The notes below the pieces were generated by a model. The model ran no database searches, was not told where the DNA came from, and saw nothing but the letters and a program-made list of their open reading frames with translations. Position numbers and translations under genes: made by a program. Positions 1 to 18,818 of a stretch of 33,706 nt of DNA are shown here, piece by piece. How positions within the stretch are numbered: position 1 is the first letter of the stretch; each line of letters begins with the position of its first letter. The stretch spans positions 1-33,706 of the forward strand of contig JADGQF010000014.1 in the NCBI GenBank assembly GCA_017882045.1, in the 5' to 3' direction. This DNA comes from Anaerolineales bacterium (GTDB lineage: Bacteria; Chloroflexota; Anaerolineae; CG2-30-64-16).

Positions 1-600
1 GGCATAGCTCGGCAAGGACACCAATTGCAGTCGCTCATGCGTCTGGAGCCACTGCTGCACCGCCTTGCTGGTGTGAATGCTGCCGTTGTCGACCAAGACG
101 TAGAGGCGGTCATCCGGATAGGCCGTCAGCAAACTCGTCAGCGCCGCAATGAACTCAACCGAGCGCTTGCGGTCGGTCAAGCGGTAGTGCCAGACGCCCG
201 TGCGCAGATTGACCGTGCCGAAGATCGGCCGCTTGCGGTTTTGGCCGGGCGTCAGCACCCTGGGTTGCTCGCCCCGGCGATGCCAGGTAGCCCGCAAGAC
301 CGGCAACAGCATCATGTCGCACTCGTCCTCGGCCAGGATGATCGCGGTAGGATCGGCCAGGATCTCGATCAGATGTGCCACTTTGGCATCCTCGGCCGGG
401 TCACGGCGCTGGGGCAAGATCAATTTGGGTCGTCCCCACACGAAGTCCGCCAGCGGCAACGCCCGCCGTAGCGTCGAACGGCTGACGCGGATCCTGAAGC
501 GTTGCCGCAGATGACGCAGCAAGCCCCCGACCGTCCAGCCCGGTTCGGGATAGCCAAAGTTCGCCGGGGGTTGGCCGGTCTGCGCCTGCACGATGGCTAC
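1..600 (-). CDS. IS630-family transposase, DDE catalytic part (partial, -1 frame)
   Basis: Translating the minus strand in the frame whose codons begin at 600 gives an open frame to the window edge (200 codons). It includes ANFGYPEPGWTVGGLLRHL, the first catalytic Asp in IILAEDECDMML and the second in LYVLVDNGSIHTSKAV, both diagnostic of IS630/Tc1-mariner transposases. The third acidic residue must lie beyond position 1. The frame has no start codon of its own near its beginning and is closed upstream by a TGA at 639-637, so it is expressed only by a frameshift from the helix-turn-helix frame, or the element is dead. No run of A or other classical slippery heptamer is visible in the 40-bp overlap. 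Confidence 0.7.
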
Positions 601-875
601 AGGCGGGGCTCGTTGGGCGGACGTCCGCTGCGCGGCTCATCGTACAACCCGGCCACACCCTGCTGGAGGTAGCGTTCCAGCCAGGGGTAGACCGCTTGCG
701 CCGAGTAGCCCAGCAATGCGCCAATCTCGGGCACGCTCTTGCCCTGGTCACTCAACAGCACGAAATGAGCACGCTCGGAAATGCGCCCAATGGCTTCCCG
801 GGCCAGCCGGCGCAGTTCCTGGCGCGGCTCATCGCTTAACTCGATGCGTATCTCGATCGGTCGTCCAGTCTTCAT
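597..875 (-). CDS. IS630-family transposase, N-terminal helix-turn-helix part
   Basis: This 92-residue frame carries the DNA-binding half of an IS630-type transposase. The segment ISERAHFVLLSDQGKSVPEI followed by GALLGYSAQAVYPWLERY is the typical homeodomain-like helix-turn-helix, and GLYDEPRSGRPP is the usual linker leading to the catalytic domain. The frame stops with TAG at 599-597, where an intact transposase would continue. Reading the last G of the CTG codon twice (a -1 shift, or restoring one lost G) joins it smoothly to the catalytic frame as EPRL-VAIVQAQTGQPP. The ATG at 875 is the only good start; no strong Shine-Dalgarno sequence precedes it. Confidence 0.75.
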   Translation of the reverse strand: MKTGRPIEIRIELSDEPRQELRRLAREAIGRISERAHFVLLSDQGKSVPEIGALLGYSAQAVYPWLERYLQQGVAGLYDEPRSGRPPNEPRL

Positions 876-4864: not shown

Positions 4865-4903
4865 ACCTCTCAGGTGGGCCTGTTCGTTGCCCACCCGCGA
4901 GGT
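4865..4903. repeat. Hairpin repeat, copy 1, between nrdR and ftsZ
   Basis: ACCTCTCAGGTGGGC at 4865-4879 pairs with 4889-4903 at 13 of 15 positions. The left arm and part of the loop are nearly identical to the second copy at 4962-5006, so these are two units of one repeat about 97 bp apart. The rest of the gap (4569-4724 and 4772-4864) holds only the NrdR boxes and no gene I can support. Confidence 0.6.
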
Positions 4904-4961
4904 AATGAACGCGAACCACGTCCAACGTGCGCTAAGGCTCGTTGGCCACGCATATAAGCTC

Positions 4962-5006
4962 AATACCTCTCAGGTGGGCCTGCTCCTTGCTGACCTGAGA
5001 GGTATT
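4962..5006. repeat. Perfect 14-bp hairpin repeat, copy 2, just after ftsZ
   Basis: AATACCTCTCAGGT at 4962-4975 is perfectly matched by ACCTGAGAGGTATT at 4993-5006, with a 17-base loop. It begins 12 bp beyond the ftsZ tail stop codon, where the end of the dcw transcript is expected, and may help to terminate or protect it. No U-run follows on the minus strand. It shares CCTCTCAGGTGGGCCTG with copy 1. Confidence 0.65.
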
Positions 5007-5017
5007 AGAGCACGATT

Positions 5018-5260
5018 TCAGCGGGCTCGGCGCAGAAAGGCCGGGATATCCAGGTCGTCCCGGTCGAAGGTGCGCTTCGGGAACTCGATGGTCTTGGCCT
5101 CGTCGGGGGCCGGAACCTTCTGTTCTTTGATCGCCTCGAAGCCCGTGGCGATGACCGTGATGCGGATCTCGTCCTTCAGCTCCGGATCGATGACCGCACC
5201 GAAGATGATGTTGGCATCGGGGTCGGCAGTGCGGCGGATGATCTCCGCAGCCTCGTTGAA
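5018..5260 (-). pseudogene. ftsZ: Severed C-terminal part of ftsZ, behind an in-frame amber codon
   Basis: Reading on in the ftsZ frame past the TAG at 5263-5261 gives 80 further sense codons. They begin [20 protein letters not shown] and run through [20 protein letters not shown] to the conserved tail [12 protein letters not shown], ending with TGA at 5020-5018. This is exactly the missing end of FtsZ: the last strands of the GTPase fold's C-terminal domain and the peptide that binds FtsA and other membrane partners. There is no start codon or ribosome site to express it separately. Nothing else in this stretch is degraded, so the stop is either very recent or an error. Confidence 0.85.
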
Positions 5261-6100
5261 CTAGTACAGGCTGAGGTCCGGACCACCGGTGATATTGAAT
5301 AGAATACCCTGGGCGCCCTCGATGCTGACGTCGAGCAGCGCGCTATGGATGGCCTGCTCGGCCGCGTTCTGCGCGCGGTTGTCGCCGCTGGCCCGGCCAA
5401 TCGCCATCAGCGCCGAGCCACCCTCGTTCATGATGCTGCGTACATCGGCGAAGTCCAGGTTGATCAGACCCGGGATGGTGATCAGCTCGGAGATGCCCTG
5501 GATGCCCTGGCGCAACACGTCATCGGCCATGCTGAAAGCTTGTTGGATGCTGGCTTTCTTGTCGACCACCTGCAACAGACGGTCGTTCGGAATAACGATG
5601 AGCGTATCCACGCCCTCGCGCAGCCGGGCAATGCCTTCGTCGGCCACCTTGCGGCGCCTGGCGCCTTCGAACGTGAAGGGCTTGGTGACGACGCCGATGG
5701 TCAGGGCGCCGGTCTCCTTGGCCAGCTTTGCCACCACCGGGGCCGCGCCGGTCCCTGTGCCACCGCCCATACCCGCGGTCACGAAGACCATGTCGGCGCC
5801 TTTGAGCAGGGCTTTGATCTCCTCAGACGACTCCTCGGCTGCCTTCTCGCCCGTCTCGGGGTGACCACCCGAGCCGAGGCCCTTGGTCAGCTTGTCGCCG
5901 ATGCGCAGGCGTTGCGGGGACTGCGCCAGCATCAGCGCCTGCGCGTCGGTGTTCACGGAGATAAACTCGACGCCCTGGATGCCTCCCTCGATCATGCGGT
6001 TGACTGCATTCGAACCGCCGCCGCCAATTCCCAACACCTTGATCTGGGCGGGGTTCTCTACATAGGCTGTCTGCGGTGCTCTAGAATTCATCTTGGCCAT
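5261..6100 (-). CDS. ftsZ: Cell division GTPase FtsZ, truncated by an amber stop
   Basis: FtsZ polymerises into the ring that directs septum building. The GTPase core is complete: [14 protein letters not shown] near residues 25-37, the tubulin signature [12 protein letters not shown] at 110-121, NDRLL, and the T7 loop with [11 protein letters not shown] that completes the active site of the next subunit. After GGPDLSLY (residue 279) a TAG replaces the usual Glu codon (GAG) of the E-x-NEAAEII segment; the frame then continues intact to 5018, giving 360 codons in all. As read, the protein lacks the last strands of its C-terminal domain and the partner-binding tail and should not work alone. ATG at 6100 follows GAGAGGATAGGAA; ftsA ends 29 bp upstream. 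Confidence 0.93.
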
Positions 6101-12018: not shown

Positions 12019-12537
12019 TTACTTCCAAACCCTCACGATCATCATAATTACCACCAGCGCAATCAAATAGCGCCAGTCCAGGATCTCCGGCGGCAGTAAC
12101 TTAGAGAACGCGAGATACAGGTTGTCGTAATTGCCGCTTACTTGGATCAAGGGCCAATTGGCCTGGGCCAGGTAATACCAGATGCTGCCGGCAAACAACC
12201 AGCCATTGAGCAACCCGGCCAACAAGCCCAACGTCCCGCTGGAACCCGCCGTGGGGAAGGTTAGCGTCTCGCCCTGGTAACTGATGAAAGCGACTACGAC
12301 CACAAACAGCGAGTAAATGATCGCTCGCGCGGTCAACTGCGCCCCCGGGTCCGGTCCGGCAACGAAGCCCAGGACTTTGTCGCGCGCACCGGCCGCCAGA
12401 TGATCGATCAACTGCAGGATCAGCAGTGCGATCAGCAGCATGACCGTCTCGCCGATCTCTCGGCTGAAGCCACGCACCACGCCGACAAGGCCGAAGATCA
12501 CGATGATGATCAGGAAGACGATCTCAACGGGTGCCAT
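12019..12537 (-). CDS. CvpA-like integral membrane protein, second of a pair
   Basis: 172 residues with about four membrane helices: residues 4-22, 30-46, 72-88 and 155-170, plus a shorter hydrophobic stretch near 100-118. The N-terminal VEIVFLIIIVIFGLVGVVRG followed by FSREIGE resembles the CvpA family opening (helix, G-x-x-RG-F-x-RE). A central GLLAGLLNGWLFAGSIWYYL is closely echoed in the upstream gene (GFVFGLLNGYLPGAYLL), so the two look like distant paralogues and may form a heteromer. It starts inside the end of that gene (14-bp overlap) and abuts murC. Its role is unknown; its position inside the dcw cluster suggests envelope or division work. Family assignment is by eye only. Confidence 0.7.
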   Translation of the reverse strand: MAPVEIVFLIIIVIFGLVGVVRGFSREIGETVMLLIALLILQLIDHLAAGARDKVLGFVAGPDPGAQLTARAIIYSLFVVVVAFISYQGETLTFPTAGSSGTLGLLAGLLNGWLFAGSIWYYLAQANWPLIQVSGNYDNLYLAFSKLLPPEILDWRYLIALVVIMMIVRVWK

Positions 12538-13219
12538 TGCGGCCCGATCTCCCTGCTCGCCGGCTGCCGCCGAGAAGCGCTATCAGGATGAACACGGCGA
12601 TGATGACCATCACGACCAGGGCCAGTGTCGTCTCGCTGGCGCTTTGAATGCTGCTGACCAGTTGCCCGATCACGTTGGTGTTAGAGGCCGGCAAGTACGG
12701 AACGGGACCGGCCTGCAGTTCCTGATTGATGCCGAAAGGCAGCGGCAGTAGAGACGCGTTGGCCGGAAATATCGAGTCGAGCAGATATGCTCCCGGCAAA
12801 TAACCGTTGAGCAGGCCAAAGACAAAGCCCCAGCCAGACGTCGGGCCACGCAGTCGGAAACGCTCGCTGCGCCCGAGCCAGATGGCAATCAGGATCAAGG
12901 CCAGCAGGATCAGCAGCAGTGCAGGCCCGGGCGAATTCGGGTCGGCCAGCCGCGGCGAACCGATTTTCTGAAGGATCGCGTTGATCGCCGCCGATCTGTC
13001 GGCGGAACTCAAAGCCTGAAGACCGCCGTTCAGCACAAACAGGATGCCGATGTAGAATCCGTTGATCAGGCTGGCCAGTGAGCCGCCCGCGCGCGAGATC
13101 AGCAGCAGGCCGAAGAGGATCACCACCGTCAGGAAGATGGTGGCCCTCGCGCCGTGCAGATAGCCGATGATGGCGAAAGCGGCCATGATGATGGCCAGGA
13201 AGATCAACGTGACAAGCAT
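12524..13219 (-). CDS. CvpA-like integral membrane protein, first of a pair
   Basis: 231 residues with hydrophobic segments at about 3-22, 28-46, 54-68, 100-117, 130-150 and 198-216, and a basic cytoplasmic end (SRRAGRSGRNGTR). The opening MLVTLIFLAIIMAAFAIIGY followed by LHGARATI has the same helix-G-x-x-x-G pattern as the downstream gene and CvpA proteins. A GFVFGLLNGYLPGAYLL segment matches the partner. A Pro-rich extracytoplasmic loop lies between about 150 and 185. ATG at 13219 has GAGGA four bases upstream. It sits between murG and the second copy, where most dcw clusters have murC directly. Function not known. Confidence 0.7.
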   Translation of the reverse strand: MLVTLIFLAIIMAAFAIIGYLHGARATIFLTVVILFGLLLISRAGGSLASLINGFYIGILFVLNGGLQALSSADRSAAINAILQKIGSPRLADPNSPGPALLLILLALILIAIWLGRSERFRLRGPTSGWGFVFGLLNGYLPGAYLLDSIFPANASLLPLPFGINQELQAGPVPYLPASNTNVIGQLVSSIQSASETTLALVVMVIIAVFILIALLGGSRRAGRSGRNGTR

Positions 13220-15818: not shown

Positions 15819-17272
15819 GGCAACGCCTCCACCAACTGCCGGAAATGCTGCCCGCGCGCGGCAAAGTCCTGGTAAGCGTCAAAGCTTGTCCCGCCGGGGG
15901 ACAGGAGCACGACGTCGCCGGGCCGCCCGATCCGTTCGGCGACCGACACCGCCTGTTCGAGATCCGCGCAGCGGGTCACGGCGAGCTCTTCGCCGGACAC
16001 GCTGTGGCTCCGAGCAGTCAGCGCACCGGCTATCAGCTCGGCAGCCTCGCCGAAGAGCACCACCTGGCGGGCCCTCTGTCCGGCAATGGCGGCAAATTCC
16101 TCCCACGGAAGGTGCTTATCCCGGCCGCCGGCGAGCAAGATGACCGGCTCGACAAAGGACTGCAAGGCGGCGATGGCACGCTCCGGAGTGGTGGCGATCG
16201 AGTCGTTTACCCACAGCACCCCGGCACGCTCTCGGACGACTTCCAGACGATGTTCCACGCCCCCAAAGCTCGTCGCTACGCCGGCCATTGCCGCCACATC
16301 CGCGCCCGCCGCGCCCGCCAGGCAGCAGGCGGCGAGGATGTTCGCCACATTGTGCCGGCCGCGCAAACGGATATCGCTCGTGCGGCAGATCCTGGCGTCC
16401 GGCAGCCCTAACCTGCGCCATACCAGCACGTCGCCGGACAGGAAGGCGCCAGAGGCGACTTCCCCCATCAGGCTGAAGCCCAGGCAGGTCGCGCGCAGGG
16501 GATAGTACACTCCCGCCTGGCCCGAGCCTTCCACGACCTGGCAGCGGCCACTTAGCAGCCAGGGTCCGGTGTAAGCGTCGTCGGCATTCAAGACGCAAAT
16601 GTCGCCTGGCTCCTGGAAACGCAGAATGTTGGCCTTGGCCGCCGCGTAGTGGCTCATCGACGGATGGCGGTCCAGGTGGTTCGGCGTGATGTTCAGGATT
16701 GCTGCGATCGCCGGGCTATGGGCGAATAGCTCCAACTGGAAGCTGGAAAGCTCCATGACCGCCTTATCGCCGGGCCCGAAAGTGGCCAGCCGGTCGATCA
16801 GGGGCACGCCGATGTTGCCGCCGACCTGAACGGTAAAGCCCGCGGCCTGCAGCATCAGCCCGACCAGCGTGGTTGTCGTCGTTTTGCCGGCTGATCCAGT
16901 GATGCCGATGATCGGCACCGGACAGTGCCGCAGGGTCAACTCGCCGTCGTTGCTGAGCTGGATACGGCGCTGCGCAGCGGCCTGCACGATAGGCAGGTCC
17001 GGTGAGACGCCGCCGCTCAGGCAAAGCAGATCGGTATGGTCGAGCATGGCCGGCGGGTGACCGCCAAACACAAAGTCGGGCGCCGGCTGTCCTTGTTGGG
17101 CGGCGTATTCCAACATCTCACGGCGCGCCTCGGCCAGCTCCTCGGCCGAACGCCGGTCACTGAAGGTTACCCGGGCGCCGGCCGCGATGAAGAAGCGACC
17201 GAGGGCCAGGCCCTGGCGCGCCATGCCCAGGATCGTTACCTTCAAGCCTGCGTAGTCCCTGCGCGCTTTCAT
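15815..17272 (-). CDS. murD: UDP-N-acetylmuramoyl-L-alanine--D-glutamate ligase
   Basis: 485 residues. Adds D-Glu to UDP-MurNAc-L-Ala. Domain 1 begins LKVTILGMARQGLALGRFF; the ATP loop GITGSAGKTTTTT is at residues 123-135; VMELSSFQLE, NITPNHLDRHPSM, GRHNVANILAACCLAG and SIATTPERAIAAL with LLAGGRDKHLPW follow in order, and LSPGGTSFDAYQDFAARG closes the protein. An in-frame region extends upstream to 17428, but the real start is the ATG at 17272, which overlaps the stop of the preceding gene as ATGA. It is coupled to ftsW in the same way at its end. Confidence 0.97.
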   Translation of the reverse strand: MKARRDYAGLKVTILGMARQGLALGRFFIAAGARVTFSDRRSAEELAEARREMLEYAAQQGQPAPDFVFGGHPPAMLDHTDLLCLSGGVSPDLPIVQAAAQRRIQLSNDGELTLRHCPVPIIGITGSAGKTTTTTLVGLMLQAAGFTVQVGGNIGVPLIDRLATFGPGDKAVMELSSFQLELFAHSPAIAAILNITPNHLDRHPSMSHYAAAKANILRFQEPGDICVLNADDAYTGPWLLSGRCQVVEGSGQAGVYYPLRATCLGFSLMGEVASGAFLSGDVLVWRRLGLPDARICRTSDIRLRGRHNVANILAACCLAGAAGADVAAMAGVATSFGGVEHRLEVVRERAGVLWVNDSIATTPERAIAALQSFVEPVILLAGGRDKHLPWEEFAAIAGQRARQVVLFGEAAELIAGALTARSHSVSGEELAVTRCADLEQAVSVAERIGRPGDVVLLSPGGTSFDAYQDFAARGQHFRQLVEALP

Positions 17273-17754
17273 AAGACCACCCATGCGTTCGGCCAGTGCG
17301 CCTGCCAACGTTCGGTCAGAGCTGCCGCGGCATCGACGGCTGCAGCGCCGTCCACCGTCCAGTTGCGGTAGCTGATCTGTACGGCTGTCCCACCCTCGAT
17401 CAGCGTGCCGTCGGCGGCGGACGCCCACGGTAGGTCCTCGAGCTCGACGACCAGCACGTGTACGCGCCCCTGTTCGGCTGCCAGAGGCTCGCTCGCTGCG
17501 GCAAGTGTGTCGCAGACGTCGCAGGCGGCCCGGTAGGCGATCTGCAGGGCGGCTGTCTGGTCACCCCCGGCGAGAGCACGGTTCATCTCCGCACCCAGCG
17601 AATCGCTGAGTGGGACCAGGGTGCGCCTCAGCAGGCTCTCGTGCACCAGCTCCAAGCGGGGCTCTGCGTGGTCGGGAGCATGGCGCGCGCCCGGTACGCC
17701 GGAGACCTCGTCTGGCGGCGGGAGAAGAGCCTGGAAGTACGTCACTTGGTCCAC
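17269..17754 (-). CDS. Unknown 161-residue protein between mraY and murD
   Basis: I do not recognise this protein. It starts with GTG at 17754, which has a GAGG ribosome site four bases upstream and leaves 11 bp after the mraY stop; the open frame runs further up only by overlapping mraY. No signal peptide or membrane helix is visible. Residues about 30-95 look helical and acidic (HESLLRRTLVPLSDSLGAEM, TAALQIAYRAACDVCDTLAA), then comes a beta-like stretch (GRVHVLVVELEDLPW, GGTAVQISYRNWTVDG) and a last helix ending HWPNAWVVL. Its ATGA overlap with murD and tight packing argue that it is a genuine gene of the operon, probably soluble and cytoplasmic. Its task cannot be read from the sequence. 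Confidence 0.7.
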   Translation of the reverse strand: MDQVTYFQALLPPPDEVSGVPGARHAPDHAEPRLELVHESLLRRTLVPLSDSLGAEMNRALAGGDQTAALQIAYRAACDVCDTLAAASEPLAAEQGRVHVLVVELEDLPWASAADGTLIEGGTAVQISYRNWTVDGAAAVDAAAALTERWQAHWPNAWVVL

Positions 17755-17765
17755 GTTACCTCGAT

Positions 17766-18818
17766 TTAGAGCAAGGCCAACGCGATGCCCAACATGCCGG
17801 CCAGGATCGCGATCAGGAAGAAACGTTGTGAGACGTGCGTCTCTGACCAGCCGAGCAATTCGAAATGGTAATGCAACGGCGCCATCTTGAAGATGCGCTT
17901 GCCCTTGCCGGTACGTCGCTTGGTCCACTTGAAGTAGCCCACTTGCAGGACGTCCGACAGCGCCTCGGCCACGAAGACTGCGCCCACGATCGGCAGCAGC
18001 AGCCACTGGCCGGTCATCAGGGCGACCGCGGCCAATGTCGCGCCCAGCGCCAACGCGCCGGTGTCGCCCATGAACAGAGCGGCGGGATACGAGTTATACC
18101 ACAGAAAGGCGAACAGCGCGCCCACCATGGTAAAACAAAACGACATCAGCGGGTATTGGCCCTGCAGATAGGCGATTACGCCATACGCCGCGAAAGCGAC
18201 TGCGGTCGTTGAACCGGCCAGACCGTCCAGGCCATCCGTCAGGTTAACTGCGTTCGACTCGGCGATGATGATGAACATCGCCATGGGAATGTAGATCAGT
18301 CCGAGGTTGATCTTGTCTTTGATCCCGGGCACGGCCACGCTGTGCAGGCCCAGAAAATAGTAGAGGCCAAGCGCAGCCGCCAGGGCAAGGACGAACTGAT
18401 AGGAGGCCTTGATTTTGGCCAACAAGCCCTGGCCGTCGCCGCGCTTGCCGCGGATGCCGGCCACATCGTCAATCGCGCCGAGGTAGCCGAAGGCCACCAG
18501 AACCAGCAGCGGCACCAGGATGGATTTGCCTATCAGCGGGCTGCCCTCCGAGAACTTAAACAGTTTCAGCATCGCCTTGCCCCAGCCCACTCCGCTCAGC
18601 AAGTTGGCAAGGTTAAGCACCACAGTGACCAGGAAGACCGGGACGAGTATCATGATACCGCCCATCGTCGGCGTGCCCATCTTGGTCTGGTGCCCACCCG
18701 GCTCCTCGATATGGATCTGCTTGCCCATCCGGCGGCGTTTGAGCTCGTTGATGAGCGGACGGCCCCAGATAACGGCCAGCAGGAAGGATATCGAGGCGAG
18801 CGTCAGCGCAAAAGACAT
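17766..18818 (-). CDS. mraY: Phospho-N-acetylmuramoyl-pentapeptide-transferase MraY
   Basis: 350 residues, ten or so membrane helices. MraY moves phospho-MurNAc-pentapeptide to undecaprenyl phosphate, making lipid I. Marks are the TKMGTPTMGGIMIL stretch (45-58), the Asp pair in GAIDDVAG (117-118), NAVNLTDGLDGLAGS (189-203), SYPAALFMGDTGALALG around 250 with the catalytic Asp of GDTG, and the C-terminal PLHYHFELLGWSE. The usual HHH motif reads HYH (316-318), a small departure. The DD-x-x-K lysine is also not in its usual place. I chose ATG at 18818, with AGGAAG five bases upstream, over an ATG 18 bases earlier that lacks one. Confidence 0.95.
   Translation of the reverse strand: MSFALTLASISFLLAVIWGRPLINELKRRRMGKQIHIEEPGGHQTKMGTPTMGGIMILVPVFLVTVVLNLANLLSGVGWGKAMLKLFKFSEGSPLIGKSILVPLLVLVAFGYLGAIDDVAGIRGKRGDGQGLLAKIKASYQFVLALAAALGLYYFLGLHSVAVPGIKDKINLGLIYIPMAMFIIIAESNAVNLTDGLDGLAGSTTAVAFAAYGVIAYLQGQYPLMSFCFTMVGALFAFLWYNSYPAALFMGDTGALALGATLAAVALMTGQWLLLPIVGAVFVAEALSDVLQVGYFKWTKRRTGKGKRIFKMAPLHYHFELLGWSETHVSQRFFLIAILAGMLGIALALL

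Follow-up and report, generated by a model that had tools for sequence, protein, structure and literature searches.

The window analysed here, a stretch of 33,706 nucleotides (contig C112), belongs to a draft genome of an Anaerolineales bacterium that comprises 4.85 Mb in 462 contigs and is 99.3% complete and 6.1% contaminated. It contains ftsZ in a division and cell-wall (dcw) cluster together with ftsA, ftsQ, ddl, murB, murC, murG, ftsW, murD, mraY, murF, a PBP gene, ftsL, mraW, and mraZ, all of which are open frames. The genes rpoB and rpoC lie further along from this cluster and are open as well. The gene names in the cluster were taken from the sequences, with family models checked for ftsZ, ftsA, rpoB, and rpoC only. 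The following features are central to the analysis:

5018..6100, minus strand: ftsZ frame, 361 codons including the stop codon, with one interruption (translation and TIGR00065)
5261..5263, minus strand: in-frame TAG, codon 280, where Glu is invariant (GAA or GAG in 109/109 relatives)
5258..5260, minus strand: aberrant neighboring codon TTC (Phe); the residue is Val in 96 relatives, Ile in 8, Ala in 4, and Leu in 1
5018..5257, minus strand: remainder of the frame downstream of both aberrant codons, with a C-terminal sequence normal for FtsZ (FtsZ_C positions 54-95; no unseen residues at conserved columns)
5245..5276, no strand assigned: imperfect inverted repeat with 9-base arms (5245-5253 and 5268-5276) and both changed bases in the loop
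6130..7362, minus strand: ftsA, intact, with a TAG stop codon (Pfam FtsA and SHS2_FTSA)

Translation of the minus strand from 6100 down to 5018 gave one frame whose only internal stop is a TAG (codon 280), preceded by GGPDLSLY and followed by FNEAAEII. Past this codon, the frame continues into the conserved tail [12 protein letters not shown]. The TAG is thereby confirmed to be truly present in the assembled sequence, and the translation bears out the sequence-only reading, which had described an in-frame TAG at 5261-5263 with an intact remaining frame that reaches the tail. The best match to TIGR00065 scored 455.6 bits, against a curated cut-off of 295.2, when read through the one internal TAG. 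A frame that runs uninterrupted over the GTPase and C-terminal domains was not found, as the TAG interrupts it at codon 280. In the Pfam search, both halves matched FtsZ_C, the upstream half at profile positions 1-51 and the downstream half at 54-95, so that the break falls within this domain, between positions 51 and 54. A codon scan detected no in-frame ATG, GTG, or TTG downstream of the TAG.

The closest named relatives of this FtsZ come from Chloroflexota metagenome-assembled genomes of the Caldilineaceae and Anaerolineales type. With the FtsZ proteins of Chloroflexota and other bacteria (TIGR00065; PF00091 and PF12327; PDB 2vam), it shares the GTPase and C-terminal domains, the conserved tail ending [10 protein letters not shown], and the adjacent ftsA in the dcw cluster. 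It differs from them at two adjacent positions, with a TAG in place of the invariant Glu and a Phe codon in place of the next, aliphatic residue.

This second aberrant codon modifies the initial picture. The sequence-only reading had assumed a single G-to-T change from GAG to TAG; the GAG-to-TAG difference is indeed seen, but the next codon is also changed, from GTC to TTC. The DNA of the window reads TAC TAG TTC AAC, as compared to mostly TAC GAG GTC AAC in genomes of the same family, which corresponds to two G-to-T differences on the coding strand, at window positions 5263 and 5260 and thus three bases apart. In a comparison of 109 FtsZ sequences, all had Glu at the column of the TAG and all had V, I, A, or L at the next column. 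The TAG and the Phe are the only residues of this FtsZ that are unseen in the relatives at well-conserved columns, and changes incompatible with the family are hence clustered in two adjacent codons and absent from the rest of the protein. Elsewhere in the window, unseen residues were found at 7 of 1468 well-conserved columns (about 0.5%) of nrdR, ftsA, rpoB, and rpoC, and from this rate we put the chance of an independent anomaly in a neighboring codon at about 1%.

Only a single match to TIGR00065 was detected in the assembled genome. A second ftsZ that relaxes selection on this copy, which had been considered previously, is therefore excluded for the assembled genome. As ftsZ is a single-copy gene and the neighboring dcw genes are open, nothing points to a relaxation of selection on division.

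Several other elements of the window were observed alongside. Directly past the ftsZ stop codon, there is a perfect 14-base inverted repeat with a 17-base loop (4962-5006), and a related 40-base copy with 85% identity lies 100 bases away (4865-4904). An 18-mer common to both is found nowhere else in the genome, and the two repeats are possibly transcription terminators. Inside the dcw cluster, 12524-13219 on the minus strand encodes a predicted hydrophobic protein of 231 amino acids without a Pfam match, beside a CvpA-like protein, and a 245-amino-acid frame at 17269-18006 (minus strand), also without a Pfam match, overlaps the mraY and murD frames. At the end of the window (1-875, minus strand), a helix-turn-helix start resembling an IS630-type transposase is cut by the window border; it looks like an IS630-type transposase with a likely continuation in another frame, either frameshifted or using programmed frameshifting.

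Across 60 relatives, no internal stop was found in the other ftsZ copies, once a flag in one genome (G048) had been set aside. The TAG in that genome was rejected as a shared feature, as it sits upstream of the start codon. An ftsZ match was missing in 2 of the 60 relatives (G013 and G053), both of which are drafts. G053 is about 94% complete without an ftsZ match, and a relative of the same family (G018) has one; the missing gene in G053 may be an assembly gap. We also searched for internal nonsense codons beyond ftsZ, and no other convincing one was found in 74 non-overlapping tblastn alignments against relatives, which covered about 28,700 codons of a 0.9 Mb sample. This indicates that neither decay nor recoding is general in this genome. 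The stops that initially appeared inside alignments were mostly in antisense or shadow frames, and filtering left, besides the one in ftsZ, stops that lay upstream of a start codon, at the end of an alignment, or in poor alignments of low complexity. In another relative (G039, L328), rpoC has an internal TAG in a stretch that contains ambiguous bases; this genome is a single contig, rated 77% complete. This TAG is probably assembly noise and exemplifies how such stops arise in assemblies.

As to the question of whether the cell can decode TAG, no tRNA with a CUA anticodon was found among 41 distinct tRNAs, using an anticodon-arm pattern, an Rfam covariance model, and ARAGORN on the gapped draft genome, in which some expected tRNAs were not found. 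Three pattern matches for a suppressor tRNA were discarded, since one was inside a tRNA-Gln(ttg) gene and two were at loci without an ARAGORN tRNA. Release factor 1 is intact (prfA, 532 bits), and the only match to pyrrolysyl-tRNA synthetase (PylS) had 24 bits, below the cut-off of 178. Moreover, nrdJ, ftsA, and murB terminate in TAG, and no other convincing in-frame TAG, as would recur in many genes upon reassignment, was found in the approximately 28,700 aligned codons. The argument against reassignment that had been drawn from the TAG ends of nrdJ and ftsA thus holds and is strengthened by the intact RF1 and the use of TAG at the end of other genes. The amber suppressor tRNA that had been proposed as an option finds no support in the tRNA search. 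With the stop-codon reassignments surveyed in PMC8629427, our case has in common that an in-frame stop codon is present in a conserved gene. It differs from them in being confined to one codon of one gene, with RF1 present, without a cognate tRNA, and with TAG terminating genes elsewhere. The same survey reports that false stop-codon inferences were caused by contamination and erroneous alignment.

The local sequence context of the two changed bases was analyzed as well. They lie in the loop of the imperfect inverted repeat, and the single-strand DNA fold of 5235-5290 has an energy of -12.5 kcal/mol, which is better than that of shuffled sequences (z -2.97). On the coding strand, a GGTGGT motif is found just upstream of the changed bases. 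Clustered Illumina miscalls have been linked to inverted repeats and GGC/GGT motifs (PMC3622629), and the position of the changed bases in a repeat loop near GGT resembles these short-read miscalls, although that context applies to Illumina, which may not be the platform of this assembly. Because chance alone often produces inverted repeats of this size, we regard the context as a weak lead. No template for the two changes was detected in the genome: 11- and 12-mers spanning both of them did not recur in 0.9 Mb, and one 10-mer was found once elsewhere.

Taken together, the TAG is probably a local read or assembly-consensus error and not new biology. This is the most likely explanation because a second, equally odd change lies directly adjacent and because nothing was found in the genome that could read through the TAG. 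The coding-strand G would have been read as T at 5263 and at 5260, either by miscalling or from erroneous or low-coverage reads, and the organism's own ftsZ at this locus is probably ordinary and intact. While the two differences are directly visible, we infer both the errors at these positions and a role of the inverted-repeat loop in favoring miscalls. In line with a consensus error, two of the differences that FtsZ could tolerate least are in neighboring codons of an otherwise normal protein, and the genome was assembled as a fragmented draft, 6.1% contaminated. On the other hand, no general error rate was seen in the remainder of the window, which is clean, and a real multi-nucleotide mutation would have the same appearance. 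Such a mutation is the basis of the main alternative, which we consider possible but rather unlikely, namely a real nonsense allele that arose in a recent double G-to-T event and reached a composite consensus from a minor strain or a dying subpopulation. Clustered changes can also come from single mutation events, the remaining ftsZ frame is undamaged as after a very recent change, and the bin is mixed, with the contamination given above. The product would be a 279-residue FtsZ, truncated within the C-terminal domain and without the FtsA-binding tail. It would not be expected to function; the allele would probably be lethal or restricted to a minor strain. However, a lethal allele ought not to dominate the consensus, no second ftsZ is present that could relax selection, and both changes hit strongly conserved positions. 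The second adjacent G-to-T difference makes a local error the better explanation. Of the four options originally proposed, sequencing or assembly error and a nonsense allele are the two that remain.

Readthrough, a split protein, and gene loss are improbable even when taken jointly. Decoding of the TAG as an amino acid, by a suppressor tRNA that escaped detection or by near-cognate reading, would fit the intact and normal FtsZ-like downstream frame, and a tRNA could be unassembled in a gapped genome in which some expected tRNAs were not found. It is nevertheless very improbable in view of the 41 tRNAs without a CUA anticodon, the intact RF1, the lack of a PylS match above the cut-off, the TAG ends of other genes in the window, and the lack of another convincing in-frame TAG in the compared genes, and it leaves the neighboring Phe unexplained. 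Production of FtsZ as two separate, associating polypeptides could be imagined because the break lies inside the C-terminal domain family and the Pfam model recognizes each piece separately, but there is no start codon after the TAG, the break is within a domain and not between domains, and such a split is seen in no relative, which makes this extremely improbable. The same holds for the view that a loss of FtsZ-based division in this lineage has left ftsZ as a pseudogene: the two draft relatives without an ftsZ match would be in agreement with it, but ftsZ shows no further decay, and it is accompanied by an intact ftsA and by open frames for the remaining dcw genes.

A real and decoded TAG would mean that an essential division gene depends on amber readthrough, which would be a rare case. 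It is very unlikely that the TAG is real in the only ftsZ and that a working FtsZ is still made, be it via an amber-decoding tRNA missed in our searches, near-cognate readthrough, or two polypeptides. The finding mainly calls for caution: where an essential gene from a draft metagenome bin shows a single in-frame stop, the neighboring codons and the decoding genes should be checked first, before the stop is called recoding or gene loss.
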